64,000 nt of DNA from Apostichopus japonicus (Eukaryota > Echinodermata > Holothuroidea > Aspidochirotida > Stichopodidae). Shown piece by piece: positions 1 through 32,464 of this stretch. Where the stretch lies: the NCBI RefSeq assembly GCF_037975245.1, contig NC_092578.1, positions 15,792,321 through 15,856,320 on the forward strand. The letters are read 5' to 3'. Below the pieces are notes generated by a model. It was given only the letters and a program-made list of their open reading frames with translations, was not told the DNA's origin and searched no databases. The first letter of the stretch is position 1. Each line of letters starts with the position of its first letter. The position numbers and the translations under genes are program-made.

Positions 1-3000
1 ATTTCTTACATTTGGTAAAGGACAACAACCATATTGTCCACTGGAAAGAAGACAACATGTGTTTCCATCTGGACATTCACTTTGTCCTCCTGGACATGTA
101 ACTGTTCCAACAGTGGTTGCTTCAGTCTTTTCAAACCAGGCCATAGTCTCACTTCCTTGACTACATGTGCCTCCAGAAACATCACATGTGTAACCATTTG
201 GACAACAGTGCAGATGGTCTGAGCAGCAAACAGCCTACGAAAGAAGCAGTTATTTACACTGGAGTAAAATATATGTATCAGAAACAAAAGTTTGGATATG
301 ATTTCTAGTAAAATAAAATGACAGTACCACAGGCAAACAGGTTTCCAGTATGTTTTCAAAAAAGCTCATTTGCTACTACCCATACACCTTTCTGCTTTCT
401 AGGATCCCAACGATTTTTTACACAACAAAACTAAGAAGATGGAATTTCAAAATTGTACACAGTGATTCAACTTAATAGAATTAGTCATATTTAGGTATGG
501 AAAGTACTTTCCTATCTTACAGGGAAAGAGTTTATTCTAAAATATTTCCAAAACATCTCATTTTCTGATCATAATCTTAACTGTTGTCTACCCCTTCAGT
601 GATTGTCTTACCAAAACTGAATAAATTATTCTTTAATTCTAAAAAACATGTTTTTTACTTACATTTGGTAAAGGACAACAACCATATTGTCCACTGGAAA
701 GAAGACAACATGTGTTTCCATCTGGACATTCACTTTGTCCTCCTGGACACGTAACTGTTCCAAGAGTGGTTGCTTCAGTCTTTTCAAACCAGTTTATAAT
801 TGCACTTCCTTGACTACATGTGCCTCCAGCAACGTCACATGTGTAACCATTTGGACAACAGTGCAGATGGTCTGAGCAGCAAACAGCCTACGAAAGAAGC
901 AATATTTTACATGTGGAATAAATATATGTTTCAGAAACAAAGTTTGGATATGATTTCAAGTGACAAAAACGACAACACCACAGGCAAACAGGTTTCCGCA
1001 AAATCTCGTTTGCTTTTATTCACACACCTTTCTGCTTTCTAGAATTCCAACGATTTTTTACACAACAAAAATAAGATGCAATTTAAAATTCTGGACAGTG
1101 ATTCAATTTAATAGAATCAGTTACATTTATGTATGGTAGGTTCTTTCCTATCTTACAGGGGAAAAGAGTTGATTTAAAAACATTTCCAAAACATTTCATT
1201 TTCTGATCATAATCCTACCTGTAATCTTTACCTTCGGTGATTGTCATACCAAAACTGAATAAAATAGTATTAAATTCTAATAAACATGTTGTATTTCTTA
1301 CATTTGGTAAAGGACAACAACCATATTGTCCACTGGAAAGAAGACAACATGTGTTTCCATCTGGACATTCACTTTGTCCTCCTGGACATGTAACTGTTCC
1401 AACAGTGGTTGCTTCAGTCTTTTCAAACCAGGCCATAATCTCACTTCCTTGACTACATGTGCCTCCAGCAACGTCACATGTGTAACCATTTGGACAACAG
1501 TGCAGATGGTCTGAGCAGCAAACAGCCTGCAAAAGAAGCAGTTATTTGCAATGGAAGTAAGTATAGGTATCAGGCACAAGTTTATGTATGATTTCTAGAA
1601 AAAATATGACAAAACCACACACAAACAGGTTTCCATCATGTTTTCAATAATTCTCATTCATTATTTTCCATACACCTTTCTGCTTTCTAGGATCCCAACG
1701 ATTTTTAACACAACAAAACTAAGAAGATGGAATTTAAAAAATTTACACAGTGATTCAACTTTATTGAATCAGTTATATTCATGTATGGAAAGTACTTTCC
1801 TATCTTACAGGGGAAAAGAGTTGATTTTAAACTATTTCCAAAACATCTCATTTTCTGATCATAATCCTACCTGTTATCTTTCCCTTCAGTGATTGTCATA
1901 CCTAAACTGACTACAATATTATTAAATTCTAACAAACATGGTGTATTTCTTACATTTGGTAAAGGACAACAACCATATTGTCCACTGGAAAGAAGACAAC
2001 ATGTGTTTCCATCTGGACATTCACTTTGTCCTCCTGGACATGTAACTGTTCCAACAGTGGTTGCTTCAGTCTTTTCAAACCAGGCCATAATCTCACTTCC
2101 TTGACTACATGTGCCTCCAGAAACATCACATGTGTAACCATTTGGACAACAATGCAGATGGTCTGAGCAGCAAACAGCCTACGAAAGAAGCAGTATTTTA
2201 CACTGGAGTAAAATATATGTATCAGAAACAAAAGTTTGGATATGATTTCTAGTAAAATAAAATGACAGTACCACAGGCAAACAGGTTTCCAGCATGTTTT
2301 ACAAAAAAGCTCATTTGCTACTACCCATACACCTTTCTGCTTTCTAGGATCCCAACGATTTTTTACACAACAAAACTAAGAAGATGGAATTTCAAAATTG
2401 TACACAGTGATTCAACTTAATAGAATTAGTTATATTTAGGTATGGGAAGTACTTTCCTATCTTACAGGGAAAGAGTTTATTCTAAAATATTTCCAAAACA
2501 TCTCATTTTCTGATCATAATCTTAACTGTTGTCTACCCCTTCAGTTATTGTCTTACCAAAACTGAATAAAATATTCTTTAATTCTAAAAAACATGTTTTT
2601 TACTTACATTTGGTAAAGGACAACAACCATATTGTCCACTGGAAAGAAGACAACATGTGTTTCCATCTGGACATTCACTTTGTCCTCCTGGACATGTAAC
2701 TGTTCCAACAGTGGTTGCTTCAGTCTTTTCAAACCAGGCCATAATCTCACTTCCTTGACTACATGTGCCTCCAGCAACGTCACATGTGTAACCATTTGGA
2801 CAACAGTGCAGATGGTCTGAGCAGCAAACAGCCTGCGAAAGAAGCAGTTATTTACAATGGAAGTAAGTATAGGTATCAGGCACAAGTTTATGTATGATTT
2901 CTAGTAAAAAATATGACAACACCACAGGCAAACAGGTTTCCAGTATGTTTTCAATAATTCTCATTCATTATTTCCATACACCTTTCTGCTTTCTAGGATC

Positions 3001-6000
3001 CCAACGATTTTTAACACAACAAAACTAAGAAGATGGAATTTAAAAAATTTACACAGTGAATCAACTTTATTGAATCAGTTATATTTATGTATGGAAAGTA
3101 CTTTCCTATCTTACAGGGGAAAAGAGTTGATTTTAAAGCATTTCCAAAACATCTCATTTGCTGATCATAATCCTACCTGTTATCTTTACCTTCAGTGATT
3201 GTCATACCAACTGAATGAAATATTATTAAATTATAATTACATGGTGTATTTCTTACATTTGGTAAAGGACAACAACCATATTGTCCACTGGAAAGAAGAC
3301 AACATGTGTTTCCATCTGGACATTCAATTTGATGAAGATGGAATTTAAAAAATTTACACAGTGATTCAACTTTATTGAATCAGTTATATTTAGGTATGGG
3401 AAGTACTTTCCTATCTTACAGGGAAAGAGTTTATTCTAAAATATTTCCAAAACATCTCATTTTCTGATCATAATCTTAACTGTTTTCTACCCCTTCAGTG
3501 ATTGTCTTACCAAAACTGAATAAAATATTCTTTAATTCTAAAAAACATGTTTTTTACTTACATTTGGTAAAGGACAACACCCATATTGTCCACTGGAAAG
3601 AAGACAACATGTGTTTCCATCTGGACATTCACTTTGTCCTCCTGGACACGTAACTGTTCCAACAGTGGTTGCATCAGTCTTTTCAAACCAGTTCATTATA
3701 TCACTTCCTTGACTACATGTGCCTCCAGAAACGTCACATGTGTAACCATTTGGACAACAGTGCAGATGGTCTGAGCAACAAACAGCCTGCGAAAGAAGCA
3801 GTTATTTACACGGGAAGTAAAATAAATGTATCTGAAACAAAGTTTGTGTATGGTTTCTAGTAACAAATATTACAACACCACAGACAAACAAGTTGCCAGT
3901 ATGTTTTCAAAAATCTCATTTGCTATTACCCATACACCTTTCTGCTTTCTAGGATCCCAATGATTTAGTACACAACAAAACTAAGTAGATGGAATTTAAC
4001 AAATTTACACAGTGATTCAACTTAAAAGAACCAGTTATATTTAGGTAAAGGAAGTACTTTCTTATCTTACAGGAAGAAAAGTTTATTCTAAAATATTTCC
4101 AAAACATCCCATTTTCTGATCATAATCCTACCTGTTATCTTTCCCTTCAGTGATTGTCATACCAAAACTAAATAAAATATAAATAAATTCTAAAAAATAT
4201 GGTTTTTTTCCCTTACATTTGGTAAAGGACAACACCCATATTGTCCACTGGAAAGAAGACAACATGTGTTTCCATCTGGACATTCACTTTGTCCTCCTGG
4301 ACATGTAACTGTTCCAAGAGTGGTTGCTTCAGTCTTTTCAAACCAGGCCATAATCTCACTTCCTTGACTACATGTGCCTCCAGAAACGTCACATGTGTAA
4401 CCATTTGGACAACAATGCAGATGGTCTGAGCAGCAAACAGCCTACGAAATAAGCAGTTATTTACACTGGAGTTAAATATATGTATCAGAAACAAAGTTTG
4501 GATAAAAAATCAAGTGCGAAAAATGACAACACCACAGGCAAACAGTTGCCAGTATGTTCTCAAAAATCTCATTTGCTATTACCCATACACCTTTCTGCTT
4601 GCTAGAATCCCAATGATATTTTTCATTACAAAAATAAGATGCAATTTAAAATTCTGGACAGTGTTTCAATTTTAAAGAATCAGTTACATTTATTTATGGT
4701 AGGTTATTTCCTATCTTACACGGGAAAAGAGTTATTTTTAAACATTTCCAAAACATCTCATTTTCTGATCATAATCATACCTGTTATCTTTACCTTCAGT
4801 GATTTTCATACCAAAACTGACTAAAATATTTTTAAATTATAATTAACATGGTATATTTCTTACATTTGGTAAAGGACAACAACCATATTGTCCACTGGAA
4901 AGAAGACAACATGTGTTTCCATCTGGACATTCACTTTGTCCTCCTGGACATGTAACTGTTCCAAGAGTGGTTGCTTCAGTCTTTTCAAACCAGGCCATAA
5001 TCTCACTTCCTTGACTACATGTGCCTCCAGAAACATCACATGTGTAACCATTTGGACAACAATGCAGATGGTCTGAGCAGCAAACAGCCTACGAAAGAAG
5101 CAATATTTTACGTGTGGAATAAATATATGTGTCAGAAACAAAGTTTGGATAAGATTTCAAGTGACAAATATTACAACACCACAGACAAACAGGATGCCAG
5201 TATGTTTTCAAAAAATCTCATTTGTTATTACCCATACACCTTTCTGCTTTCTAAGATCCCAACAATTTTTTACACTATGAAAATAAGAAGATGGAATTTA
5301 ATAATTATAAACAGTGATTCAAGTTTATAGAATCAGTTGTAGTTAGGTATGGGAAGTACTTTCTTATCCTACAGGTAAAAGAGTTTATTCGAAACTATTT
5401 CCAAAAGATCTCATTTTCTGATCATAATCCTACCTGTTATCTTTACCTTCAGTGATTGTCATACCAAAACTGACTAAAATATTATTAAATTCTAAAAAAC
5501 ATGGTTTTTTACTTACATTTGGTAAAGGACAACAACCATATTGTCCACTGGAAAGAAGACAACATGTGTTTCCATCTGGACATTCACTTTGTCCTCCTGG
5601 ACATGTAACTGTTCCAACAGTGGTTGCTTCAGTCTTTTCAAACCAGGCTATAATCTCACTTCCTTGACTACATGTTCCTTGAGAAACATCACATGTGTAA
5701 CCATTTGGACAACAATGCAGATGGTCTGAGCAGCAAACAGCCTGTGAAAGAAGCAGTTATTTACAATGGAAGTAAGTATAGGTATCAGGCACAAGTTTAT
5801 GTATGATTTCTAGAAAAAATATGACGAAACCACACGCAAACAGGTTTCCAGTGTTTTCAATAATTCTCATTCATTATTTTCCATACACCTTTCTGTTCCT
5901 AGGATCCCAACGATTTTTAACACAACAAAACTAAGAAGATGGAATTTAAAAAATTTACATAGTGATTCAACTTTATTGAATCAGTTATATTTATGTATGG

Positions 6001-9000
6001 AAAGTACTTTCCTATCTTACAGGGGAAAAGAGTTGATTTTAAACTATTTCCAAAACATCTCATTTTCTGATCATAATCCTACCTGTTATCTTTCCCTTCA
6101 GTGATTGTCATACCTAAACTGACTACAATACTATTAAGTTCTAACAAACATGGTGTATTTCTTACATTTGGTAAAGGACAACAACCATATTGTCCACTGG
6201 AAAGAAGACAACATGTGTTTCCATCTGGACATTCACTTTGTCCTCCTGGACATGTAACTGTTCCAACAGTGGTTGCTTCAGTCTTTTCAAACCAGGCCAT
6301 AGTCTCACTTCCTTGACTACATGTGCCTCCAGAAACATCACATGTGTAACCATTTGGACAACAGTGCAGATGGTCTGAGCAGCAAACAGCCTACGAAAGA
6401 AGCAGTTATTTACACTGGAGTAAAATATATGTATCAGAAACAAAAGTTTGGATATGATTTCTAGTAAAATAAAATGACAGTACCACAGGCAAACAGGTTT
6501 CCAGTATGTTTTCAAAAAAGCTCATTTGCTACTACCCATACACCTTTCTGCTTTCTAGGATCCCAACGATTTTTTACACAACAAAACTAAGAAGATGGAA
6601 TTTCAAAATTGTACACAGTGATTCAACTTAATAGAATTAGTCATATTTAGGTATGGAAAGTACTTTCCTATCTTACAGGGAAAGAGTTTATTCTAAAATA
6701 TTTCCAAAACATCTCATTTTCTGATCATAATCTTAACTGTTGTCTACCCCTTCAGTGATTGTCTTACCAAAACTGAATAAATTATTCTTTAATTCTAAAA
6801 AACATGTTTTTTACTTACATTTGGTAAAGGACAACAACCATATTGTCCACTGGAAAGAAGACAACATGTGTTTCCATCTGGACATTCACTTTGTCCTCCT
6901 GGACACGTAACTGTTCCAAGAGTGGTTGCTTCAGTCTTTTCAAACCAGTTTATAATTGCACTTCCTTGACTACATGTGCCTCCAGCAACGTCACATGTGT
7001 AACCATTTGGACAACAGTGCAGATGGTCTGAGCAGCAAACAGCCTACGAAAGAAGCAATATTTTACATGTGGAATAAATATATGTTTCAGAAACAAAGTT
7101 TGGATATGATTTCAAGTGACAAAAACGACAACACCACAGGCAAACAGGTTTCCGCAAAATCTCGTTTGCTTTTATTCACACACCTTTCTGCTTTCTAGAA
7201 TTCCAACGATTTTTTACACAACAAAAATAAGATGCAATTTAAAATTCTGGACAGTGATTCAATTTAATAGAATCAGTTACATTTATGTATGGTAGGTTCT
7301 TTCCTATCTTACACGGGAAAAGAGTTATTTTTAAACATTTCCAAAACATTTCATTTTCTGATCATAATCCTACCTGTAATCTTTACCTTCGGTGATTGTC
7401 ATACCAAAACTGAATAAAATAGTATTAAATTCTAATAAACATGTTGTATTTCTTACATTTGGTAAAGGACAACAACCATATTGTCCACTGGAAAGAAGAC
7501 AACATGTGTTTCCATCTGGACATTCACTTTGTCCTCCTGGACATGTAACTGTTCCAACAGTGGTTGCTTCAGTCTTTTCAAACCAGGCCATAATCTCACT
7601 TCCTTGACTACATGTGCCTCCAGCAACGTCACATGTGTAACCATTTGGACAACAGTGCAGATGGTCTGAGCAGCAAACAGCCTGCAAAAGAAGCAGTTAT
7701 TTGCAATGGAAGTAAGTATAGGTATCAGGCACAAGTTTATGTATGATTTCTAGAAAAAATATGACAAAACCACACACAAACAGGTTTCCATCATGTTTTC
7801 AATAATTCTCATTCATTATTTTCCATACACCTTTCTGCTTTCTAGGATCCCAACGATTTTTAACACAACAAAACTAAGAAGATGGAATTTAAAAAATTTA
7901 CACAGTGATTCAACTTTATTGAATCAGTTATATTCATGTATGAAAAGTACTTTCCTATCTTACAGGGGAAAAGAGTTGATTTTAAACTATTTCCAAAACA
8001 TCTCATTTTCTGATCATAATCCTACCTGTTATCTTTCCCTTCAGTGATTGTCATACCTAAACTGACTACAATATTATTAAATTCTAACAAACATGGTGTA
8101 TTTCTTACATTTGGTAAAGGACAACAACCATATTGTCCACTGGAAAGAAGACAACATGTGTTTCCATCTGGACATTCACTTTGTCCTCCTGGACATGTAA
8201 CTGTTCCAACAGTGGTTGCTTCAGTCTTTTCAAACCAGGCTATAATCTCACTTCCTTGACTACATGTGCCTGCAGAAACATCACATGTGTAACCATTTGG
8301 ACAACAATGCAGATGGTCTGAGCAGCAAACAGCCTACGAAAGAAGCAGTATTTTACACTGGAGTAAAATATATGTATCAGAAACAAAAGTTTGGATATGA
8401 TTTCTAGTAAAATAAAATGACAGTACCACAGGCAAACAGGTTTCCAGCATGTTTTACAAAAAAGCTCATTTGCTACTACCCATACACCTTTCTGCTTTCT
8501 AGGATCCCAACGATTTTTTACACAACAAAACTAAGAAGATGGAATTTAAAAATTGTACACAGTGATTCAACTTAATAGAATTAGTTATATTTAGGTATGG
8601 GAAGTACTTTCCTATCTTACAGGGAAAGAGTTTATTCTAAAATATTCCAAAACATCTCATTTTCTGATCATAATCTTAACTGTTGTCTACCCCTTCAGTT
8701 ATTGTCTTACCAAAACTGAATAAAATATTCTTTAATTCTAAAAAACATGTTTTTTTTCTTACATTTGGTAAAGGACAACAACCATATTGTCCACTGGAAA
8801 GAAGACAACATGTGTTTCCATCTGGACATTCACTTTGTCCTCCTGGACATGTAACTGTTCCAACAGTGGTTGCTTCAGTCTTTTCAAACCAGGCCATAAT
8901 CTCACTTCCTTGACTACATGTGCCTCCAGCAACGTCACATGTGTAACCATTTGGACAACAGTGCAGATGGTCTGAGCAGCAAACAGCCTGCGAAAGAAGC

Positions 9001-12000
9001 AGTTATTTACAATGGAAGTAAGTATAGGTATCAGGCACAAGTTTATGTATGATTTCTAGTAAAAAATATGACAACACCACAGGCAAACAGGTTTCCAGTA
9101 TGTTTTCAATAATTCTCATTCATTATTTCCATACACCTTTCTGCTTTCTAGGATCCCAACGATTTTTAACACAACAAAACTAAGAAGATGGAATTTAAAA
9201 AATTTACACAGTGAATCAACTTTATTGAATCAGTTATATTTATGTATGGAAAGTACTTTCCTATCTTACAGGGAAAAGAGTTTATTCAAAACTATTTCCA
9301 AAACATCTCATTTTCTGATCATAATCCTACCTGTTATCTTTACCTTCAGTGATTGTCATACCAACTGAATGAAATATTATTAAATTATAATTACATGGTG
9401 TATTTCTTACATTTGGTAAAGGACAACAACCATATTGTCCACTGGAAAGAAGACAACATGTGTTTCCATCTGGACATTCACTTTGATGAAGATGGAATTT
9501 AAAAAATTTACACAGTGATTCAACTTTATTGAATCAGTTATATTTAGGTATGGGAAGTACTTTCCTATCTTACAGGGAAAGAGTTTATTCTAAAATATTT
9601 CCAAAACATCTCGTTTTCTGATCATAATCTTAACTTTTTTCTACCCCTTCAGTGATTGTCTTACCAAAACTGAATAAAATATTCTTTAATTCTAAAAAAC
9701 ATGTTTTTTACTTACATTTGGTAAAGGACAACACCCATATTGTCCACTGGAAAGAAGACAACATGTGTTTCCATCTAGACATTCACTTTGTCCTCCTGGA
9801 CACGTAACTGTTCCAAGAGTGGTTGCATCAGTCTTTTCAAACCAGTTCATTATATCACTTCCTTGACTACATGTGCCTCCAGAAACGTCACATGTGTAAC
9901 CATTTGGACAACAGTGCAGATGGTCTGAGCAACAAACAGCCTGCGAAAGAAGCAGTTATTTACAATGGAAGTAAGTATAGGTATCAGGCACAAGTTTATG
10001 TATGATTTCTAGTAAAAAATATGACAACACCACAGGCAAACAGGTTTCCAGTATGTTTTCAATAATTCTCATTCATTATTTCCATACACCTTTCTGCTTT
10101 CTAGGATCCCAACGATTTTTTACACAACAAAACTAAGAAGATGGAATTTCAAAATTGTACACAGTGATTCAACTTAATAGAATTAGTTATATTTAGGTAT
10201 GGGAAGTACTTTCCTATCTTACAGGGAAAGAGTTTATTCTAAAATATTCCAAAACATCTCATTTTCTGATCATAATCTTAACTGTTGTCTACCCCTTCAG
10301 TTATTGTCTTACCAAAACTGAATAAAATATTCTTTAATTCTAAAAAACATGTTTTTTACTTACATTTGGTAAAGGACAACAACCATATTGTCCACTGGAA
10401 AGAAGACAACATGTGTTTCCATCTGGACATTCACTTTGTCCTCCTGGACATGTAACTGTTCCAACAGTGGTTGCTTCAGTCTTTTCAAACCAGGCCATAA
10501 TCTCACTTCCTTGACTACATGTGCCTCCAGCAACGTCACATGTGTAACCATTTGGACAACAGTGCAGATGGTCTGAGCAGCAAACAGCCTGCGAAAGAAG
10601 CAGTTATTTACAATGGAAGTAAATATAGGTATCAGGCACAAGTTTATGTATGATTTCTAGTAAAAAATATGACAACACCACAGGCAAACAGGTTTCCAGT
10701 ATTTTTTCAATAATTCTCATTCATTATTTCCATACACCTTTCTGCTTTCTAGGATCCCAACGATTTTTAACACAACAAAACTAAGAAGATGGAATTTAAA
10801 AAATTTACACAGTGAATCAACTTTATTGAATCAGTTATATTTATGTATGGAAAGTACTTTCCTATCTTACAGGGAAAAGAGTTTATTCAAAACTATTTCC
10901 AAAACATCTCATTTTCTGATCATAATCCTACCTGTTATCTTTACCTTCAGTGATTGTCATACCAACTGAATGAAATATTATTAAATTATAATTACATGGT
11001 GTATTTCTTACATTTGGTAAAGGACAACAACCATATTGTCCACTGGAAAGAAGACAACATGTGTTTCCATCTGGACATTCACTTTGATGAAGATGGAATT
11101 TAAAAATTGTACAAAGTGATTCAACTTAATAGAATCAGTTATATTTAGGTATGGGAAGTACTTTCCTATCTTACAGGGAAAGAGTTTATTCTAAAATATT
11201 TCCAAAACATCTCATTTTCTGATCATAATCTTAACTGTTTTCTACCCCTTCAGTGATTGTCATACCAAAACTGAATGAAATATTATTAAATTATAATTAC
11301 ATGGTGTATTTCTTACATTTGGTAAAGGACAACAACCATATTGTCCACTGGAAAGAAGACAACATGTGTTTCCATCTGGACATTCACTTTGTCCTCCTGG
11401 ACATGTAACTGTTCCAACAGTGGTTGCTTTAGTCTTTTCAAACCAGTTCATTATCTCACTTCCTTGACTACATGTGCCTCCAGAAACATCACATGTGTAA
11501 CCATTTGGACAACAGTGCAGATGGTCTGAGCAGCAAACAGCCTGCAAAAGGAGCAGTTATTCACAGTCGAAGTAAAATATATGTATCAGAAACAAAGTTT
11601 GTGTATGATTTCCAGTAAAAAAAAAAAAGACAACTCCACAGACAAACAGGTTTCCAGTGTGTTTTCAAATAATCTCATTTGCTATTACCATACACCTTTC
11701 TGCTTCTTAGAATCCCAACGATGTTTTAAACAACAAATTTAAGATGCAAGTTAAAATTCTGGACAGTGATTCAATTTAAAAGAATCAGTTACATTCATTT
11801 ATTGTAGGTTCTTTCCTATCTTACAGGGGAAAAGAGTTGATTTGAAAACATTTCCAAAACATCTCATTTTCTGATCATATTCCTACCTGTTATCTTTACC
11901 TTCAGTGATTGTCATACCAAAACTGAATGAAATATTATTAAATTTTAATAAACATGGTGTATTTCTTACATTTGGTAAAGGACAACAACCATATTGTCCA

Positions 12001-21000: not shown

Positions 21001-24000
21001 TTCCATACACCTTTCTGCTTTCTAGGATCCTAACAATTTTGAAAACAACAAAAATAAGAAGATGGAATTTAAAAATTTTACACAGTGATTCAATTTAAAA
21101 GAATCAGTTACATTTAGGTATGGGAAGTACTTTCTTATCCTACAGGGAAGAGAGTTTATTCGAAACTATTTCAAAACATCTCATTTTCCTGATCATAATC
21201 CTACCTGTTATCTTTCCCTTCAGTGATTATCTTACCAAAACTGACTAAAATATTATTAAATTCTAAAAAACATGTTTTTTTCTTACATTTGGTAAAGGAC
21301 AACAACCATATTGTCCACTAGAAAGAAGACAACATGTGTTTCAGAATCAGTTACATTTATGTATGGGAAGTACTTTCTGATCTTACAGGGAAAAAAAGTT
21401 TATTCTAAAATATGTCCAATACATCTCATTTTCTGATCATAACCCTACCTGTTGTCTTTCCCTTGGGTGAATGTCATGCCAAACTGAATAAAATTTTATT
21501 ATATTTTAACAAACAGGGAGAATTTCTTACATTTGGTAAAGGACAACAACCATATTGTCCACTGGAAAGAAGACAACATGTGTTTCCATCTGGACATTCA
21601 CTTTGTCCTCCTGGACATGTAACTGTTCCAACAGCGGTTGCTTCATTCTTTTCAAACCAGGCCATAATCTCACTTCCTTGACTACATGTGCCTCCAGAAA
21701 CATCACATGTGTAACCATTTGGACAACAGTGCAGATGGTCTGAGCAGCAAACAGCCTGCGAAAGAAGCAGTTATTTACACTGGAGTAAATATATGTGTCA
21801 GAAACAAAGTTTGTGTATGGTTTCTAGTACGAAATATTACAACACCACCAACAAACAGGTTGCCAGTATGTTTTCAAAAAATCTCATTTGCTATTACCCA
21901 TACACCTTTTTGCTTTCTAGAATCCCAACGATTTTTTACACAACAAAAATAAGAAGATGGAATTTAACATTTTAAACAGTGATTCAAGTTGATAGAATCA
22001 GTTGTATTTAGGTATGGGAAGTACTTTCTAATCTTACAGGTAAAAAAGTTTATTCTAAAATATTTCTCAAACATCTCATTTTCTGATCATAATCCTACCT
22101 GTTATCTTTCCCTTCAGTGAATGTCATACCAGAACTAAATGAAATATTATTAAATTCTAACAAACATGGCGTATTTCTTACATTTGGTAAAGGACAACAC
22201 CCATATTGTCCACTGGAAAGAAGACAACATGTGTTTCCATCTGGACATTCACTTTGTCCTCCTGGACATGTAACTGTTCCAACAGTGAATACTTCAGTCT
22301 TTTCGAACCAGTTCATAATCTCACTTCCTTGACTACATGTGCCTCCAGAAACATCACATGTGTAACCATTTGGACAACAGTGCAGATGGTCTGAGCAGCA
22401 AACAGCCTGCAAAAGAAGCAGTTATTTACACTGGAGTAAAATATATGTATCAGAAACTAAGTTTGGATATGATTTCAAGTGCGAAAAATGACAACACCAC
22501 AGACAAACAGGTTGCCAGCATGTTTTCAAAAATCTCATTTGCTAACCCTTTCAGCTTTCTAGGATCCCAACGATTTTTACACAACAAAAATAAGAAGATG
22601 GAATTTAGAAATTTTAGACAGTGATTCAACTTACAAGAATCTGTTACATTTGGGTATGGGAAGTACTTTCCTATCTTACAGAGAAAGAGTTTATTCTAAT
22701 ATATCTCCAAAACAACTCATTTTCTAATCTTAATTCTTCCTGTTATCTTTACCTTCAGCGATTGTCTTACCAAAGCTGAATAAAATATTATTAAATTCTA
22801 AAAAACATGGTTTTTTACTTACATTTGGTAAAGGACAACAACCATATTGTCCACTGGAAAGAAGACAACATGTGTTTCCATCTGGACATTCACTTTGTCC
22901 TCCTGGACATGTAACTGTTCCAACAGCGGTTGCTTCAGTCTTTTCAAACCAGGCCATAATCTCACTTCCTTGACTACATGTGCCTCCAGAAACATCACAT
23001 GTGTAACCATTTGGACAACAGTGCAGATGGTCTGAGCAGCAAACAGCCTGCAAAAGAAGCAGTTATTCACAGTGGAAGTAAAATATATGTAAAAGAAACA
23101 AAATTTGGATAAGATTTCAAGTGCGAAAAATGACGACACCACAGGCAAACAGGTTTCCAAAAAATCTCATTTGCTATTACCCATACACCTTTCTAGAATC
23201 CCAACGATATTTTTCACTACAAAAATAAGATGCAATTTAAAATTCTTGACAGTGATTCAATTTAATAGAATCAGTTACATTTATGTATGGTAGGTTCATT
23301 CCTATCTTACAGGAAAAGAGTTGATTTTAAAACATTTCCAAAACATCTCATTTACTGATCATAATCCTAGGTCTGTTATCTTAACCTTCGGTGATTGTCA
23401 TACCAAACCTGAACAAAATAGTATTAAATTCTAACAAGCATGGTGTATTTCTTACATTTGGTAAAGGACAACAACCATATTGTCCACTGGAAAGAAGACA
23501 ACATGTGTTTCCATCTGGACATTCACTTTGTCCTCCTGGACATGTAACTGTTCCAACAGTGGTTGCTTCAGTCTTTTCGAACCAGTTCATAATCTCACTT
23601 CCTTGACTACATGTGCCTCCAGAAACATCACATGTGTAACCATTTGGACAACAGTGCAGATGGTCTGAGCAGCAAACAGCCTGCAAAAGAAGCAGTTATT
23701 TACACTGGAAGTAAATATATGTTTCAGAAGCAAAGTTTGGATATGATTTCTAGTAAAATAAAATGACAGTACCACAGGTAAATAGGTTTCAAGCATTTTT
23801 ATTAAAAATCTCATTTGCTATTACCCGTACTGCTTTCTAGGATCCCAACAATTTTTTACACAACAACCAGAATGAAAACATTTCATGGTTCCTTGCTGCT
23901 GTTCATTAGTTCCATTCATAGGGAAATTTCTAACAAAGCCCTAATACAACAACAGTAATTTATGCTCACAAACTTTTGTTGCCAAAGTAATGCTAAGCCC

Positions 24001-27000
24001 TGATATCAATTGCAACACACATCAGTGTGTGAAGACTATCTACCATTATCATCATACCAAGTTTGACGAAATTCCGACTAGTAATAGTAGCCAAGTAATT
24101 GCAATTTGGAGTATTTCACGTTTGACCCCATGACCTCATTAATATTCATGAAATGACCACCAAAATCAACATGGTTAATCTACTTACTATGAGCCACCCA
24201 CTCACCAAGTATGGTAATGATTGGTCATTCCCTTGTTGAGTTATTGTGCATACAAACTTTTCATAACGAAATAATGCTAGGCCCCCCTTCCCATATAAAC
24301 ATGCATGATATCAATTGCAACACACATCAGTGTGTGGAGACTATCTACCGATATCAGCATACCAAGTTTGACGAAATTCCAATAAATAGTAGCTGAGTTA
24401 TTGCAACTTGGGAGTTTTTCACGTTTGACCCGTGACCTCATTAATATTTTTTTAACTTTGACCTTGTTTAACTTCGCACACGAAGGTCACACGGGGGTCA
24501 ACCTATTGACATTTATGATCAGAAGGTACCTTTGACATCTGAAAATAGCATCGAAACTGTAAAAATCCCCAAAACATGAAAAGGTCACCAGAGGTCAAAT
24601 TGAAGTCAAGGGTCACCCAGATGCGGGTCAACAAGTGGATTACATTGAAGCAACTCCCAACCTTAACGGACAGTTCGTTCTCAAGTTATCACAAAAATAC
24701 CAGTTTTTTTATCATTAATTGACCTTTGGTGACCTCGGATCACATGACCGTTAGGTTTGAAAATATTCCCCTATACCATTTGCAACTTGTCCCAAAATAT
24801 CAACCGTGTCACACCTTGGAACTGAGAGTAATTGCATTAAATGTCTGAAAATTAACTTTGACCTCGTATAACTCCGCACACGAAGGTCACACGGGGGTCA
24901 ACCCATTGACATTTATGATCAGAAGGTACCTTTGACATCTGAAAATAGCATTGAAACTGTAAAAATCCCCAAAACATGAAAAGGTCACCAGAGGTCAAAT
25001 TGAGGTCAAGGTTCACCCAGATGCAGGACGACAATTGGATTAAATTGAAGCAACTCCCAACCCTAACGGACAATTCGTTCTCAAGTTATCGCAAAAATAC
25101 TAGTTTTTTATCATTAATTGACCTTTGGTGACCTCGGATCACATGACCGTTAAGTTTGAAAATATTCCCCTATACCATTTGCAACTTGTCCCAAAATATC
25201 AACCGTGTCACACCTTGGAACTGAGAGTTACTGCATTAAATGTCTGAAAATTTACTTTGACCTTGTATAACTTTACACACAAAGGTCACTCGGGTGTCAA
25301 CCAATTGACATTTTTGATCGGAAGGTACCTTTGATATCCAAATCTAGCATCAAAACCAAACATTTTCTTTTTCGCCCGTTTTCTCCCAAACTAAGCACAT
25401 TTTTTCTAATGTGACCTTTGACCTTTTGACCTTGGTTTCAAATGTAGTTTGATCTGCTGATTCCAAAAATCAACACGATAAGTCTGTACAGCCATCCTAA
25501 CTCCGACCGAAAACTTTGACCCCATATAAGTTCGCACACAAAGGTCACACAGGGGTCAACCTATCGATATTTATGATCGGAAGGTACCTTTGACATCTGA
25601 AAAGAGCATCGAAACTGTAAAAATCCCCAAAACATGAAAAGGTCACCAGAGGTCAAATTGAGGTCAAGGGTCACCCAGATGTGGGTCGACAATTGGATTA
25701 CACTGAAGCAACTCCCAACCCTAACGGACAATTCCTTCTCAAGTTATCGCAAAAATACTAGTTTTTTAACATTAACTGACCTTTGGTGACCTCAGATCAC
25801 ATGACCGTTAAGTTTCAAAATGTTCCCCTAACCAGTTCACAACTTGTCCCAAAATATCAACCTTGTCGCACATTGGCACTGGGAGTTATTGCAGTTTTAG
25901 TATTTTGGGTTTTTGGACCATAACTGACCTTTGGTGACCTTTGTGGGCACCAAAAACAATAGGGTTCATCTACTCACTATGGGCCACCCACCCACCAAGT
26001 TTGATCATGATCAGTCAATCCCTTGTTGAGTTATCGTGCATACAAGCTAAAGCATCACACACATACACAAACATACAGTACATACACTCACACACACGCC
26101 AACCTGAATACATAGGTTCCTTTGCTTTTAGCAAGGAACCAAAAATAAGAAGATGGAATTTAAAAATTTCAGACAGTGATCCAACTTACAAGAATCTGTT
26201 ACATTTATGTATGGGAAGTACTTTCCTATCTAACAGGGACAGAGTTTATTCTAATATATTTAAAAAACATCTCATTTTCTGATCATAATCCTACCTGTTA
26301 TCTTTACCTTCAGTGATTGTCATACCAAAACTGACTAAAATATTATTAAATTCTAACAAACATGGTGTATTTCTTACATTTGGTAAAGGACAACACCCAT
26401 ATTGTCCACTGGAAAGAAGACAACATGTGTTTCCATCTGGACAATAACTTTGTCCTCCTGGACATGTAACTGTTCCAACAGTGGTTGCTTCATTCTTTTC
26501 AAACCAGGCCATAATCTCACTTCCTTGACTACATGTGCCTCCAGAAACATCACATGTGTAACCATTTGGACAACAGTGCAGATGGTCTGAGCAGCAAACA
26601 GCCTGCGAAAGAAGCAGTTATTTACACTGGAGTAAAATATATGTATCAGAAACAAAAGTTTGGATATGATTTCTAGTAAAATAAAATGACAGTACCACAG
26701 GCAAACAGGTTTCCAGCATGTTTTCAAAAAATCTCATTTGCTATTACCCATTCACCTTTCTGCTTTCTAGGATCCCAACGATTTTTTACACAACAAAACT
26801 AAGAAAATGGAATTAAAAATTGTACACAGTGATTCAACTTAATAGAATCAGTTATATTTATGTATGGGAAGTACTTTCCTATCTTACAGGGAGAAGAGTT
26901 GATTTTAAAACATTTCCAAAACATCTCATTTTCTGATCATAATCTTACCTGTTGTCTTTACCTTCAGTGATTGTCATATCAAAACTGAATGAAATATTAT

Positions 27001-30000
27001 TAAATTCCAACAAACATGGTGTATTTCTTACATTTGGTAAAGGACAACAACCATATTGTCCACTGGAAAGAAGACAACATGTGTTTCCATCTGGACATTC
27101 ACTTTGTCCTCCTGGACATGTAACTGTTCCAACAGTGGTTGCTTCAGTCTTTTCAAACCAGGCCATAATCTCACTTCCTTGACTACATGTGCCTCCAGAA
27201 ACATCACATGTGTAACCATTTGGACAACAGTGCAGATGGTCTGAGCAGCAAACAGCCTGCGAAAGAAGCAGTATTTTACACTGGAGTAAATATATGCATC
27301 AGAAACAAAGTTTGGATATGATTTCAAGTGAGAAAAATGACAACAACACAGGCAAACAGGTCTCCAAAAACTCTCATTTGCTATTATCCATACACCTTTC
27401 TGCTTGCTAGAATCCCAAGGATTATTTACATAACAAAACTAAGAAGATGCAATTTAAAATTCTGGACAGTGATTCAATTTAATAGAATCAGTTACATATA
27501 TGTATGGTAGGTTCTTTCCTATCTTACAGGAAAAGAGTTGATTTTTAAACATTTCCAAAATTAAAATTCTAACAAACATGGTGTATTTCTTACATTTGGT
27601 AAAGGACAACAACCATATTGTCCACTGGAAAGAAGACAACATGTGTTTCCATCTGGACATTCACTTTGTCCTCCTGGACATATAACTGCCCCAAGGGTGG
27701 TTGCTTCAGTCTTTTCAAACCAGGCCATTATCTCACTTCCTCGACTACAGGAACCTCGAGAAGGATCACATGTAAAACCATTTTGACAGCAATGGATCTG
27801 ATCTGGGCAGCAAACCGCCTGAAAAAGTCATCAAAGTGATATCAGATACATCAGGTAGGAACTGGTTGGTGGTTTACAGTCAATTACATTGAATAACAGT
27901 ACACAAACTCAATCTTCACAGTAGGCATTGTGATTTGCAATGACGGCCATAGTCTTAACAGAAAATGAGTAAGTGTTTTTGAGCAGAAATCTTTTTATTG
28001 ACAAGTTCCCTTTTCAATGACCCTGTTTTGCCCCTGCCTCCCTGTTCTCTCCACCCCTGCCCTCTCCCATACCCTCTGCCATCAGTTGTCTTCTTCATCG
28101 TACAATTAGGCATTCATCACCGAGTATACATGCCAATCAGGGTTGACTCATTTTCTACAGCTGGTTCATGTACTGTAATCTGATTTTGTGGGACACACTG
28201 TAATCTGATGCACTGTAATCTGATGTATTGTTATCTGATGTACTGTTATCTGATGTACTGTAATCTCATGTACTGTTATCTGCTGTATTGTTATCTGATG
28301 CACTGTTATCTGATGTACTGTAATCTCATGTACTGTAATCTCATGTACTGTAATCTGCTGTATTGTTATCTGATGCACTGTTATCTGATGTACTGTAATC
28401 TCATGTACTGTTATCTGATGTACTGTAATCTCATGTACTGTAATCTCATGTACTGTAATCTGATGTACTGTAATCTGCTGTATTGTTATCTGATGCACTG
28501 TTATCTGATGTACTGTAATCTCATGTACTGTTATCTGATGTACTGTAATCTGATGTACTGTAATCTCAAGTACTGTAATCTGATGTACTGTAATCTGATG
28601 TACTGTAATATGATGTACTGTAATCTCAAGTACTGTAATCTGACATGCTGTAATTTGATGTATTGTAATCTGATGTACTGTAATCTGATGTACTGTAATT
28701 GGATGTAATGTAATCTCAAGTACTGTAATTTCAAGTACTCAAGTACTATAATCTGATGTACTGTAATCTCATGTATCATAACCTCATGTACTGTAATCTG
28801 ACGTACTGTAATTTGATGTAATGTAATCTGATGTCCTGTAATCTGATGTACTGTAATTGGTTCATGCACTGTTATATCAAAGACTATAATTGGCTCATGT
28901 ACTGTAATCTCATGTACTCATAAGTGTGTGAACAGAAGAAGACCTGCTTAAACTTTTTCCAGTGATTCAATGATTTGGGTCAATCCAAATTTTACAAAAC
29001 TGAATACAGTACAGAGAAGAGCCCTCCAGTCGGGGAAAAATGTCACAATATGTAATAGTGCATGCCATATTGATTTGAATTGCATACAAACTCTTTAATG
29101 CTACATCACAAGCAAAGATTACAGTATTAAGCATCAAATACAGCCAACCAATCACATTAAACCTTTCTTTAGAGAGCTACATGTGTTGCTGTTTTTTTTT
29201 TTTTTCACGTTAATCACTGACCATTCACAGCCCTCTTCGTCATCGCTTGGCAAGGGGCTTGGGTGAATGAGAATTTCATCACTTTTTTTTTATTCCTTTT
29301 TCACCTCTAAATGAACCAGATATATGGCACTCTCAGGCTCTCTCTGTTGACCGCAGGATTTTTGTTTGTGATTCCTAGTTCGGTCGGTACTGGGAGAGAG
29401 CTACATTACAGACATTAGAAAATCTATAAAATCTTCCGATCTTAGAAACTTGTCTTAGGCCGACCCATCATATCATTTGATCCTTGGCACAGGGTCCCCA
29501 TGGGGGGGGGGAGGTGTCTTGGCCCCTGGAGTTCGCACCGGGTTTCGAAACACATCTTTGACATAGATTCCACTATAGGCAAAGGATTTCGGGTCTAAAT
29601 CCTTGTAGAGGTCAAATATTTCTTACATTACGTAAAGGACAACAACCATATCGTCCAGTGGCAAGGATGCAACAAGTGCTTCCATCTGGACATTCGCTCC
29701 TTCTGTCGGGACACATCACAGATTCAACTATGACCGCCTCTGTCTTGCTTACTCCGGCCACAAATACATTGCCCTCCTCCTTGCTACACTGGTCGCCATC
29801 GCAGGAAAACCCTTCCGGACAGCAGTGAGTGTCACAGCATTCCGCCTTGACAAAAAGAGAAGAAGAGCAGATATCCTCACTGTATAATGCTGTGCAAGTA
29901 CATCTATAGCAGAGTGATTGATTGTCTACTGACCCACCTGTTGAACTGTCACTGCAGATCACTTTATTTTCAAGACAGTTGACTCAGAAAATTGGTTTCA

Positions 30001-32464
30001 AATTTTTGTCATTTGCCCTGTGCATTACAGAGTGCTCAGTGGTACAAACTGTATGCACAAATTTTTTTTTTTTTGGGCCATGATCAATCGAGGTCGGTAA
30101 ACTGACAGTTCATTGGCTGGATACCCTCCTTGTCACGTTGAACAACCAATGACGGACGCAGACATACAATATCGAATCGTTGAAAATGGATAAACCAGCC
30201 AGTCAACAGGCAGACTTGGTGATTCCTCGGTACCTACTTTGAATATTTTCTTGAATAACACTGCATGTGGGATTTTACAATTTTCAGCCACTTTGACAAA
30301 ACAAGGTTCCTGCACTACCGTGGACAAACATATCGGGGGGGGGGGCATTAAGTTTAAAATCCAAGCTTTACTTTGACGGTATAAATCATGTTGAATACAA
30401 CCATTTTTAGACATTGACCTCTGTTGACCTTTGACCTCCATTGATAGCAATAAGATCCTTGTACTCACTACAAGGTCAATCTAGAATCCAAGGATGACAT
30501 TCACACAAGCTTTACTTTGTTAGTTATTTGTGTACAAGGTTTTCCAGTTCTTGACCTCTAATTGATCGTTGACCTCCAAGACAGCAAAAATGATTCATGA
30601 ACTCATCTAGGGTTAGATCCACATATAAGTTCAACCGCCATTTACCAAGAAAACCAAGTAAGTCACACACACACACAATTTTTTTGCCTCCGGTAATTCC
30701 AAAGCTACTGTTTGGATTAATATTCAACTATTGCTGCCACAGGAATTAAACTAATATTCACATGACTAGTGGCTTTGAAGATTTTGGGAAACAAAGGAAG
30801 TAATTATAGACCTATTATTAAAAAGGGGAGGTGTTTGGCAAACTACCACATTTTTTTTTAAACTACCTCATCCAGAGGTCAAATTTCTCATCCAGTTTAA
30901 AATAATGAACAACCTCTGTTTTATTTTTATATTTTTTTTTGGTGCAAATTTGAGAATTACTGCAGGAAACTGTGAAACGATAAAGGATAGGAAAATGTCA
31001 TAACAGAGGAAATCAAAAGTGACTTTCAGAAAATTTCTTAACGTATAGCAAAAATTAGTCAAAAGATTGCACTAAAAGATTTTGTTAAGTTTCACAAACT
31101 TGCAACAATATAGATTTGCTGTATAGATTTGAAGTGGCAAATATATATATATATATATATATAAATATAAAAATATATATATATTGCAGTGTTTTATGTT
31201 GTTGTATTATTGGCTTGGGGGGATGGGGTGAGGATGAAGAACGTAATAGAGATTATATCTTGTTAGATGTATCCTGGATTAACCAAATTTGTGATGCCCC
31301 CTCACCCCCCCCCCAAAAAAAATTGGCCATAGTAAAATGACTTGGATTAGAAAAACTTTCGAATACAATGAGTGCTTTCTTTGTATCTCCTGATTAGCAA
31401 GGAATCAAGAAGAAAAGGGGAAAAAAATTATTTAGCAACCAGACTCCAGCCAAGTATGTTCCCCCAATTTGTTATTTCAATCCTTGAGGAATCCACAAAA
31501 TTTCACGATAAAAGAAGACAAAAGTCATTTCTACTTACTTTGGGCAGGGGACAGCAGCCGTATTTGCCATCTGCTTGTGGACAACATGTGTTACCATCTT
31601 TGCAGTAGTACTTTCCACCGCAATGCACATTCTTCGCCACCTCCTTTTCAAACCAAGGCAATTTCTCTGATTCGCTGCTGCAAGTTCCTTCGCTGACATC
31701 ACAGGTGTACCCCGAGGGGCAACAATGTTCTCCATCGGAGCAGCATACAGCCTGCGAAATATTTAGGTACCAAACTGTCGACTGAAGAGCTCTTGCGATT
31801 GGGTTCATGAATTTTGGTCATTCTGACTCAACCAAATCATAGTCACATGCACAGTACGCTCGTACAGTAATCGATTACCCCCTAAAAAAAATCTATAAAC
31901 TAAAGAAAGATCTAAGTGGATAAACCATTGGAGCGGTCATACAGTCCTTTAGCAAGTACAGTATAGTCGAGGGACCTTTCGTGGGAAATTCCAACCAGTG
32001 TAACCTTAGCGATGGAAACCAAGCCAAACTGGATATATATGTTAGTATGTACTGTTACTGTGCAGGACCACAATGTGTTTTACACAAGAGTGAATGCAAA
32101 ATTAATGTTAGAGAAATAATTTAGCGTTCACATTTTGCGTCCATATGTACTAAGCATTTTTCAGGTTTCCTGAAACTTATTTCACCGATAAAATACCGAA
32201 GACAACATGATGCAGTGTACAGGATAAACTACCATGCATTTTTGCTAAATTTGTGCAGCATTTTTTTGCATCGCACTTTGCTACTTGTAAAAGTGAGAGA
32301 GAGTTAGAGAGAGAGAGACTCACGTTAGGTACAGGGCAACAGCCATATCCTCCTGATTCCAGCTCGCAACATGTTTTATTTTGGTCACATCTCGTCTCCT
32401 GGTCGGGACATAAGAGGGACAAAGCGACTGGGAGGACTCCCAGTAGCAAGAATAGTAGCTTCAT
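1..32464 (-). CDS. grn: Progranulin (giant multi-granulin precursor), 3' end beyond window
   Basis: Secreted precursor of granulin (epithelin) peptides. The reading frame is built from exons, each ending in a GT donor and starting after an AG acceptor, all in phase 0. Order on the minus strand: 32324-32464 (signal peptide plus first half-granulin), 31539-31751, 29627-29845, 27594-27818, then 34 near-identical 225-bp exons down to 10-234. Each repeat exon starts with [18 protein letters not shown] and ends with CPDGNTCC...GCCPLPN, so joining exons restores the 12-cysteine granulin pattern C-C-CC-CC-CC-CC-C-C. I count 37 intact repeat exons, that is 37 complete granulins plus one open half, about 2,816 residues. 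Vertebrate progranulin has seven and a half modules, so this is unusually large. Linkers carry a conserved WFEKTEA segment without dibasic sites. The stop codon and 3' UTR are not in the window, and the 5' UTR exon was not located. Family assignment is firm; that all exons join in one transcript is inferred. Confidence 0.92.
10..16671 (-). CDS. grn: Granulin array block C: 25 intact exons, continuing past the left edge
   Basis: Intact 225-bp exons in transcript order: 16447-16671, 15814-16038, 15189-15413, 14537-14761, 13898-14122, 13246-13470, 12607-12831, 11970-12194, 11317-11541, 10364-10588, 9716-9940, 8763-8987, 8109-8333, 7457-7681, 6819-7043, 6166-6390, 5517-5741, 4864-5088, 4217-4441, 3562-3786, 2608-2832, 1954-2178, 1302-1526, 663-887, 10-234. 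All keep the 12-cysteine pattern. Notable variants: 9716-9940 has CLDGN for CPDGN; 15189-15413 is the most diverged ([17 protein letters not shown]). The last donor (gtaag at 5-9) shows that the gene goes on beyond position 1. Three truncated copies (3257-3329, 9410-9485, 11012-11086) lie between. Confidence 0.92.
3257..3329 (-). pseudogene. Truncated granulin exon (no acceptor)
   Basis: The 3' end of a granulin exon, with its gtaag donor, runs normally up to the codons for the second cysteine and then joins abruptly to intron sequence (gatgaagatggaattt). The first two thirds of the exon and its acceptor are gone. Without an acceptor it should be skipped; because all flanking exons are phase 0, skipping costs nothing to the frame. 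Confidence 0.85.
9410..9485 (-). pseudogene. Truncated granulin exon (same breakpoint)
   Basis: This carries the same junction as the copy at 3257-3329: exon sequence ends at cattcactttg and continues as atgaagatgg of the intron. The shared breakpoint shows that a single deletion was later copied by the 6.1-kb duplication. Confidence 0.85.
11012..11086 (-). pseudogene. Truncated granulin exon (same breakpoint, third copy)
   Basis: Third copy of the deletion junction cactttgatgaagatgg, 1,602 bp from the copy at 9410. It retains the gtaag donor but no acceptor. It marks a second, shorter duplication in the array. Confidence 0.85.
16766..19026. mobile_element. Non-autonomous DNA transposon in a granulin intron
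   Basis: A 2,261-bp block of non-array sequence sits inside an intron. Its left end reads agtaccgctcacatataact and its right end, on the opposite strand, agttccgctcacgtataact, a good terminal inverted repeat. The flanking array sequence gacagtac|...|gtaccacagg shows gtac on both sides, a candidate 4-bp target duplication; other array copies have a single gacagtaccacagg. Subterminal regions on both sides share gcgtagac-type motifs. The longest open frames are 81 codons (16819-17064, minus) and shorter, with no transposase motif that I recognise. The superfamily is not determined. Confidence 0.8.
19361..23680 (-). CDS. grn: Granulin array block B: seven intact exons
   Basis: Intact exons in transcript order: 23456-23680, 22823-23047, 22182-22406, 21531-21755, 20636-20860, 19995-20219 and 19361-19585. 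All are 225 bp with cgcag/tgcag/cgtag-type acceptors and gtaag donors. Linker variants alternate between MAWFEKTEA and MNWFEKTEA; 22182-22406 has [11 protein letters not shown] and 19361-19585 has CCLLPN where others have CCPLPN. A truncated copy lies at 21287-21343. The block is flanked by two unrelated insertions, both intronic. Confidence 0.9.
21287..21343 (-). pseudogene. Truncated granulin exon (independent breakpoint)
   Basis: Only about 57 bp of the exon 3' end remain, joined at tgtgtttc to intron sequence (agaatcagttacatttatg). The breakpoint differs from the other three truncated copies, so this is a separate deletion. Confidence 0.82.
23867..26140. mobile_element. Inserted repeat element with internal ~400-bp repeats
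   Basis: About 2.27 kb of foreign sequence interrupts the intron motif cacaacaa|aaaataagaagatgg. The right end agcaaggaacc is the reverse complement of ggttccttgct at 23887-23897, giving 11-bp inverted repeats, though the left one is 20 bp inside the junction. The interior has two copies of a block with caattgcaacacacatcagt (24005 and 24311) and three to four copies of a ~400-bp block starting near actttgaccttgtttaactt (24457, 24855, 25255, 25510), rich in ggtcacc/tgaccttt motifs. No coding frame was recognised. Confidence 0.7.
26378..27256 (-). CDS. grn: Granulin array block A: two exons (27032-27256, 26378-26602)
   Basis: Two intact 225-bp exons, each of 75 codons with the standard cysteine pattern. 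Exon 26378-26602 reads [11 protein letters not shown] and carries [11 protein letters not shown], a Y in place of the usual E before the second cysteine. The block is bounded on the 3' side by the insertion at about 23867-26140, which lies in the following intron and so does not break the coding frame. Confidence 0.88.
27594..27818 (-). CDS. grn: Progranulin exon 4: edge copy of the array, 5' half divergent
   Basis: 225 bp, phase 0-0. The second half (linker [13 protein letters not shown] and [15 protein letters not shown]...CCPLPN) is almost identical to the array exons, while the first half is diverged: [18 protein letters not shown], then [11 protein letters not shown] instead of [11 protein letters not shown]. 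This is the pattern expected at the boundary of a homogenised array, where conversion covers only part of the terminal unit. The intron on its 3' side (27257-27593) is shorter than the usual unit. Confidence 0.88.
27819..29626. other. Granulin intron 3
   Basis: Non-coding intron between the exons at 29627-29845 and 27594-27818. Apart from the minisatellite in its centre it contains nothing that I recognise. Confidence 0.7.
28165..28920. repeat. 15-bp minisatellite (unit like tgatgtactgtaatc)
   Basis: About 50 head-to-tail copies of a 15-bp unit with single-base variants (taatct/ttatct, tgatg/tcatg/tgctg). Copies are regular up to about 28700 and decay towards 28920. Because 15 is a multiple of three, long open frames appear on both strands (for example 28208-28708 plus, repeating LMYCN); these are artefacts of the period and not genes. 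Confidence 0.93.
29627..29845 (-). CDS. grn: Progranulin exon 3: divergent granulin exon
   Basis: 73 codons, phase 0-0, acceptor tttgtcaag, donor gtaaga. It starts [16 protein letters not shown] (two residues shorter between the first two CC pairs than its neighbours) and ends CPDGSTCC...YGCCPLRN. The linker keeps SKTEA but lacks the WF pair. It completes granulin 2 and opens granulin 3. It is separated from the next exon by an intron of 1.8 kb that contains a 15-bp minisatellite. Confidence 0.9.
29846..31538. other. Granulin intron 2
   Basis: Non-coding. It contains a TA-rich microsatellite (about 31139-31186), a G/C homopolymer (31304-31313) and a tgacctttgacct-rich patch at 30410-30590 that resembles the motif of the insertion at 24-26 kb. 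No exon was seen. Confidence 0.6.
31539..31751 (-). CDS. grn: Progranulin exon 2: divergent granulin exon
   Basis: 71 codons, phase 0-0, acceptor cgcag, donor gtaagt. It starts [18 protein letters not shown] and ends CKDGNTCC...YGCCPLPK, with the linker [15 protein letters not shown]. It has the same architecture as the array exons but is clearly older: the second half has [11 protein letters not shown] where the array has [12 protein letters not shown]. It completes granulin 1 and opens granulin 2. Confidence 0.9.
32324..32464 (-). CDS. grn: Progranulin exon 1 (coding): signal peptide and N-terminal half-granulin
   Basis: This 47-codon exon begins at an ATG directly preceded by an acceptor (tttttaccag), so a separate 5' UTR exon must exist upstream. 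It encodes [17 protein letters not shown], a typical signal peptide, followed by CPDQETRC, an NKT glycosylation sequon overlapping the CC pair, and GYGCCPVPN. The six cysteines are the first half of a granulin; the other six come from the exon at 31539-31751. The donor is gtgagt. The GA-rich tract on the intron side (about 32295-32319) makes the longer open frame beyond the donor meaningless. Confidence 0.9.

Follow-up and report, generated by a model that had tools for sequence, protein, structure and literature searches.

Progranulins with many modules

Mammalian progranulin is composed of 7.5 granulin modules, some of which are split into separate N and C exons, and it possesses a sortilin-binding tail. 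The first exon of the mammalian gene encodes the signal peptide and an N-half, and CN exons are present (Table 2 of Palfree et al. 2015, PMC4527844); the sea cucumber gene described below shares both features. The same report describes tandem near-identical granulin modules as a recurrent feature. For example, the near-identical modules of Aplysia and oyster progranulins are derived from split N, C and CN exons as here, with 13 modules in Aplysia as compared with 47 in the sea cucumber, and Branchiostoma floridae (amphioxus) progranulin is reported to possess "greater than 30" modules. In amphioxus (B. floridae and model P0241), one module type is repeated tens of times between other modules, and the sea cucumber gene has the same arrangement. 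However, the amphioxus repeats lie partly in large nc exons (PMC4527844), whereas each unit of the sea cucumber array is one 225-nt CN exon.

Long granulin chains were also found among protein models. Among the matches listed (120 of 948 plus 120 of 243), at least 13 of 240 proteins reach 30 modules or more by pattern, a count that takes in isoforms of one gene. In the matches listed, the pattern gave 41 modules in Hydractinia, 39 in Lineus longissimus, 39 in Patiria miniata, 37 in a Branchiostoma hybrid and 34-37 in Haliotis; Branchiostoma hybrid model P0241 (4,635 residues) has 57. The Hydractinia, L. longissimus and P. miniata chains resemble the present one, although they come from other phyla or classes and are known from protein models alone, and two of the three models are named otherwise (SCO-spondin-like, fibrillin-2-like). 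Holothuria leucospilota granulin (P0124) shares the WFEKTEA linkers, and its end modules match modules 1, 44 and 47 of the A. japonicus precursor, but it has fewer modules, 28 versus 47 by a pattern that is inexact (P0124 contains 32 Pfam stretches). Proteins P0123, P0125, P0130, P0137 and P0161 are granulin chains filed as SCO-spondin-like, notch 2-like, fibrillin-2-like or zonadhesin-like.

Because giant progranulins are present in several phyla, some under different names, the mammalian protein with its 7.5 modules is a poor standard of comparison. The initial annotation of this DNA had measured the locus against seven and a half granulins: its module count stood, and its surprise was overstated, given more than 30 modules in amphioxus and 30-57 in the models. 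A categorically new status was ruled out by the amphioxus report and the giant models in several phyla. With 47 modules, the A. japonicus protein is large, but it is neither a record nor a new kind. A literature search (titles and starts of abstracts) found no A. japonicus paper on the present gene among the papers listed, and the word "granulin" is absent from the main texts of the sea cucumber genome papers searched.

Structure of the gene

The window, that is, the whole stretch of 64,000 nucleotides that was analyzed, corresponds to C18:15792321-15856320. When the window was searched with one array exon, 35 full-length matches of 225 nt were obtained on the minus strand, located from 10 to 27818, and all of them were open. 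An AG acceptor precedes every one (35/35). GT donors were confirmed within the window for 34 of the 35, and the donor of the last, at the window edge, was confirmed with flanking DNA. Upstream of the array, there are three more coding exons. These exons are listed below, where coordinates are window positions and (-) denotes the minus strand; array exons A1 to A35 are from the array-exon search, and P0129 is a database model.

34495-34512 (-), coding part of the upstream exon of P0129 (MQKEQE, 6 codons), just ahead of a GT donor; optional N-terminal extension
32324-32464 (-), ATG/signal exon (sn), signal peptide and N-half of module 1; AG before the ATG, GT donor
31539-31751 (-), exon 2, C-half/N-half, 213 nt
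29627-29845 (-), exon 3, C-half/N-half, 219 nt
27594-27818 (-), array exon A1; C-half divergent, N-half array-type (edge of the homogenized array)
27032-27256 (-), array exon A2
26378-26602 (-), array exon A3
23456-23680 (-), array exon A4
22823-23047 (-), array exon A5
22182-22406 (-), array exon A6
21531-21755 (-), array exon A7
20636-20860 (-), array exon A8
19995-20219 (-), array exon A9
19361-19585 (-), array exon A10
16447-16671 (-), array exon A11
15814-16038 (-), array exon A12
15189-15413 (-), array exon A13
14537-14761 (-), array exon A14; P0129 passes its donor and stops in the intron
13898-14122 (-), array exon A15
13246-13470 (-), array exon A16
12607-12831 (-), array exon A17
11970-12194 (-), array exon A18
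11317-11541 (-), array exon A19
10364-10588 (-), array exon A20
9716-9940 (-), array exon A21; opens one copy of the 9-exon block
8763-8987 (-), array exon A22
8109-8333 (-), array exon A23
7457-7681 (-), array exon A24
6819-7043 (-), array exon A25
6166-6390 (-), array exon A26
5517-5741 (-), array exon A27
4864-5088 (-), array exon A28
4217-4441 (-), array exon A29
3562-3786 (-), array exon A30; opens the other block copy (nine exons, repeating about every 6,155 bp)
2608-2832 (-), array exon A31
1954-2178 (-), array exon A32
1302-1526 (-), array exon A33
663-887 (-), array exon A34
10-234 (-), array exon A35, the last in the window; A36-A40 and six C-terminal exons lie beyond

In the window, the signal exon and 37 intact phase 0-0 exons amount to 2,816 codons. 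To reach the gene end, 40 kb of DNA on the left side was added. In this region, five more array exons (A36-A40) are followed by six divergent C-terminal exons with a stop codon. The gene runs 11.4 kb past the window and stops at window position -11434 (C18:15780886). The joined model extends from C18:15824784 down to 15780886 (44 kb) and contains 49 exons, 40 of which form the near-identical array. All acceptors are AG (49/49), all donors are GT (48/48), and all exon lengths are multiples of three (49/49), giving a single open frame of 3,559 residues. A chance or pseudo-exon origin was ruled out, given that the 49 exons join in one frame. The initial annotation had proposed one progranulin gene with at least 37 granulin modules, built from a signal exon and 37 intact phase 0-0 exons, with a precursor of more than 2,800 residues and a continuation past the window. 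The exon count proved exact, and the remaining proposals were borne out by the complete gene, which encodes 47 modules. Thus, the locus is a real gene for a long growth-factor precursor with 47 granulin modules, although not a gene of a new kind.

In the scheme of Palfree et al. (2015, PMC4527844), nearly all exons are of the half-module types sn, cn, n and c. Near the gene end, one intron lies inside an N-half and is followed by an nc exon. The C-terminus of the precursor is SKKLK, in which the mammalian sortilin-binding tail is not obvious. The joined model gives a complete base-level description of one of the larger progranulins, and the database model is shorter than the open frame.

Granulin modules and linkers

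All 47 modules fit the 12-cysteine pattern, and the 3,559 residues include 565 cysteines. There are 18 distinct module sequences among the 47, and a single sequence accounts for 20 of them. The one array-exon frame tested matched Pfam Granulin (PF00396) with E=1e-11. The best match to solved granulins had an E value of 2.6e-17, and the sequence matches granulin A (2jye). In P0129, which spans residues 1-1241, Granulin is the only Pfam domain, and the remainder of the precursor is made of granulin modules by pattern. The first exon encodes a hydrophobic start, a putative signal peptide as judged by eye. Because the protein is a chain of 12-cysteine modules with matches to Pfam Granulin and solved granulins and is encoded by half-module exons, it belongs to the progranulin family. 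A profile search of the assembly (35 contigs, 671,581,487 bases; 110 candidates scored) gave at least 46 Granulin matches, all within C18:15780943-15824080, and no second granulin gene was found among the matches listed.

By analogy with the progranulin family, the precursor is most likely secreted and/or routed to lysosomes, and cleavage in the linkers would free dozens of near-identical 6-kDa granulin copies. As in multi-copy peptide precursors, many copies per precursor might provide a higher dose of one peptide per transcript. Taken as a whole, the explanation that we propose, namely a single progranulin gene in which a block-duplicated array with homogenized exons encodes a multi-copy granulin precursor, has a probability of about 85% in our estimation.

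The motif WFEK is present in all 40 array exons, and the neighboring linker residues vary. The 11-residue linker peptide that the initial annotation had singled out is found in only 20 of the 40 array exons; its WFEK core is what all of them have in common. Of 3,024 linkers (fetched proteins and the present one), 1,220 contain the short pattern [EKRTAS]Kx[PSTEA]A, as compared with 58 of 3,024 shuffled linkers; it should be mentioned that this pattern was picked after inspection of the linkers and that the proteins are related, so that the counts are not independent. A W-x-E-K-x-x-A linker motif recurs in sea cucumber, starfish, amphioxus, molluscs and a turtle. This motif might be a processing or binding site.

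Transcript forms and start sites

P0129 (named "uncharacterized protein", Apostichopus japonicus) consists of MQKEQE, residues 1-1241 of the precursor without any difference, and a 34-residue tail. It joins the signal exon, exons 2 and 3, and A1-A14 (17 coding exons from the first on) in order, passes the donor of A14 and meets a stop 34 codons into the intron. As a database model, P0129 is consistent with a single start and with splicing in order, and it is also the main evidence for shorter forms. The initial annotation had named few-exon transcripts and start exons within the array as observations that would speak against one long precursor. On the first point, P0129 uses 17 exons in order, and its end after A14 makes a shorter form possible. 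On the second point, ATGs contiguous with an exon were searched in the 450 nt upstream of each exon, and in-frame ATGs were found directly upstream of 4 of the 49 exons (5-19 codons). None of these was convincing, and no signal-peptide-like start was seen by eye among the four.

Transcripts could mostly use part of the array, through intronic ends or exon skipping, and yield shorter progranulins of variable length. We consider this idea possible but rather unlikely. The intronic stop of P0129 is what it predicts, skipping of any exon leaves the frame unshifted, and AATAAA is present in many array introns. However, P0129 skips none of its 17 exons, its end may stem from limitations of gene prediction, AATAAA should be common in introns that are AT-rich, and the C-terminal exons are still open.

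Growth of the array

The 9-exon block A21-A29 is repeated as A30-A38 with a period of about 6,155 bp. The two copies differ by 43 mismatches and 9 gaps over 6,150 aligned bases (0.7% divergence). Two of the nine exon pairs have two differences each, and the other seven show none. At an offset of 6,156 bp, 7,755 bp can be aligned with 97.1% identity. The 2017 genome paper (PMC5638244) puts the heterozygosity of A. japonicus at 1.59% from k-mers and at 0.73% from SNPs, and terms the SNP value an underestimate. Because the divergence of the block copies does not exceed these values, the duplication is very young and perhaps polymorphic, or else the assembler placed two haplotypes in tandem. The initial annotation had suggested selection or drive for copy number, or a recent or ongoing expansion. 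Of these, it is the expansion that the tandem block supports, although the divergence of the block, being no more than allelic, calls for caution.

If one block copy is the second haplotype, the unit count is inflated and the true gene has 38 modules. We regard this as improbable, although the 0.7% divergence, the seven identical exon pairs and the published heterozygosity are all compatible with it. The HiFi reads of the assembly (mean 14.7 kb, 64x; PMC10344927) are slightly longer than two block copies, and the similarity at the 6,156-bp offset exceeds one period, as predicted for an array. Neither the read length nor the offset alignment settles the choice between 47 and 38 modules.

Four truncated exon relics were found in introns of the array, and two array introns contain inserts of about 2.2 kb.

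21287-21342 (-), truncated exon relic, last 56 nt of the unit, intron after A7
11012-11086 (-), truncated exon relic, last 75 nt, intron after A19
9411-9485 (-), truncated exon relic, intron after A21
3257-3331 (-), truncated exon relic, intron after A30
23900-26140 (no strand assigned), insert of about 2.2 kb, intron after A3; 400-bp internal repeats at 24452-25356; edges approximate, by eye
16770-19030 (no strand assigned), insert of about 2.2 kb, intron after A10; imperfect inverted-repeat arms at 16941-16970 and 18852-18881 (80%); edges approximate, by eye

The relics after A19, A21 and A30, three of the four, have one breakpoint in common. Therefore, one deletion seems to have been copied along with its block. 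The two inserts are probably mobile elements. The relics might suggest that most array exons are themselves decaying, unspliced remains of a once smaller gene. This is hardly credible, since the frame and splice sites are intact in 40 of 40 full array exons, the cysteine pattern is retained in 47 of 47 modules, and pN/pS in the modules is low (see below).

Each unit of the array is a single 225-nt exon flanked by phase 0 introns. Gain or loss of such units therefore leaves the frame open, and copy number can change by tandem duplication of unit blocks, as seen in the 9-exon block and in the relic that seems to have been copied with it. Single-exon units, a recent block duplication, relics and a near-neutral intron clock make this locus a convenient site for the study of module-number change and of the likeness of repeated exons.

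Likeness of exons and divergence of introns

Seven of the 39 array introns were excluded for odd length, and diversity was measured in the 32 units with ordinary introns. Diversity is 0.143 (95% 0.127-0.159) in introns and 0.031 in exons. The relatedness of the exons barely tracks that of the introns. The mean exon distance is 0.8% where introns are less than 2% apart, 2.5% where they are 2-5% apart and about 3% in all higher bins. Exons that are far more alike than introns, with relatedness that hardly follows them, suggest homogenization at the scale of the exon. We propose that gene conversion at the scale of the exon, together with selection on the granulin fold, maintains the likeness of the exon copies, and that introns drift. 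With moderate confidence, we consider this combination a likelier cause of the exon likeness than selection alone.

Selection on the protein and on silent and splicing sites might nevertheless produce the likeness without exon-scale gene conversion, an alternative that we hold to be quite possible but do not favor. The modules do look constrained. Across the 40 exons of the array, pN and pS are 0.029 and 0.066, respectively; without A1, the ratio pN/pS is about 0.22 for the C-half, 0.27 for the N-half and 0.94 for the linker (pairwise means, no significance test), and the linker as a whole is not constrained despite its invariant WFEK. The diversity of twofold sites (0.052, 27 sites) is close to that of intron transitions (0.062), which also favors selection alone. 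In contrast, diversity in the 32 units is 0.036 (0.013-0.063) at third positions of invariant codons and 0.022 (0.004-0.045; 29 sites) at fourfold sites, and silent sites are invariant in excess: 47 of 57 third positions of invariant codons (Fisher p about 1e-9) and 24 of 29 fourfold sites (p about 6e-6), as compared with 159 of 403 intron sites, in tests that treat sites as independent. This excess speaks for gene conversion.

The comparison of exon and intron distances points in the same direction. Their correlation is 0.065, far below the 0.575 obtained with random intron columns of equal change (0 of 2000 as low) and the 0.46 obtained with linked intron blocks (1 of 359 as low). Discordant pairs were also found. 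The exons of A20 and A24 are identical, and their downstream introns are 17.9% apart; the downstream introns of A31 and A34 are only 1.6% apart, yet the exons have seven differences, all within 53 nt. On the side of selection alone, the number of variable exon sites is small, so that their history could be obscured by repeated hits; exons and introns have the same four-gamete fraction (0.21 and 0.19); and the exon ends are weakly linked to the neighboring intron halves (0.20, p 0.02, and 0.15, p 0.05, by Mantel test). Also on this side, the exon in Mantel tests with 25 units retained a weak link with the upstream intron (0.12, p 0.035), as compared with 0.03 for the downstream intron (p 0.34), and the upstream and downstream introns gave 0.50 with each other.

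No gradient of diversity towards the exon was seen by eye inside the introns. This result argues against ordinary conversion tracts, which might leave one. A stricter form of homogenization would be confined to exons: exons would overwrite one another with edges near the splice sites while introns diverge freely, through conversion that ends at diverged introns or, in the boldest version, is templated by spliced RNA. We find this form very doubtful. If it were true, one gene would keep dozens of peptide copies uniform.

Modules in other echinoderms

The nearest module of each module was determined in seven echinoderm models. It lies in the same protein for most modules of A. japonicus (40 of 47), Holothuria (23 of 28), Patiria (35 of 39), Diadema (27 of 28) and Lytechinus (22 of 24), but for fewer in Amphiura (16 of 27) and Antedon (8 of 16). 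Modules 4-42 of A. japonicus are closer to each other than to any Holothuria module. The best matches of modules 1, 44 and 47 are Holothuria modules 1, 27 and 28, respectively, and modules 2, 3, 43, 45 and 46 have no clear pairing with Holothuria modules. This distribution fits the idea that conserved ends surround a center that would be homogenized within each species.

Neighborhood of the gene

In human, integrin alpha and FAM171 genes are located near GRN. In A. japonicus, an integrin alpha gene is next upstream of the progranulin gene (window 54508-63295, minus strand), in which Ig_2 and Ig_3 are above the Pfam cut-off and Ig_1 is below it. The progranulin contig carries all 16 Integrin_A_Ig_3 matches found in the genome. 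In moray eel model P0243, granulin is joined with PF10577, which we take to be a FAM171 family. A cysteine-rich frame at window 42741-43007 (minus strand) has weak, below-cut-off similarity to Dickkopf/prokineticin. The window also contains satellite-like arrays at 28197-28857 (15-bp unit x 44.5), 34893-35291 (GATG x 99.8, no mismatch) and 51299-51959 (62-bp unit x 10.6, 98%). Near the 5' end of the gene, a tRNA-like stretch, perhaps a SINE, was noticed by eye at 33730-33890 (minus strand).
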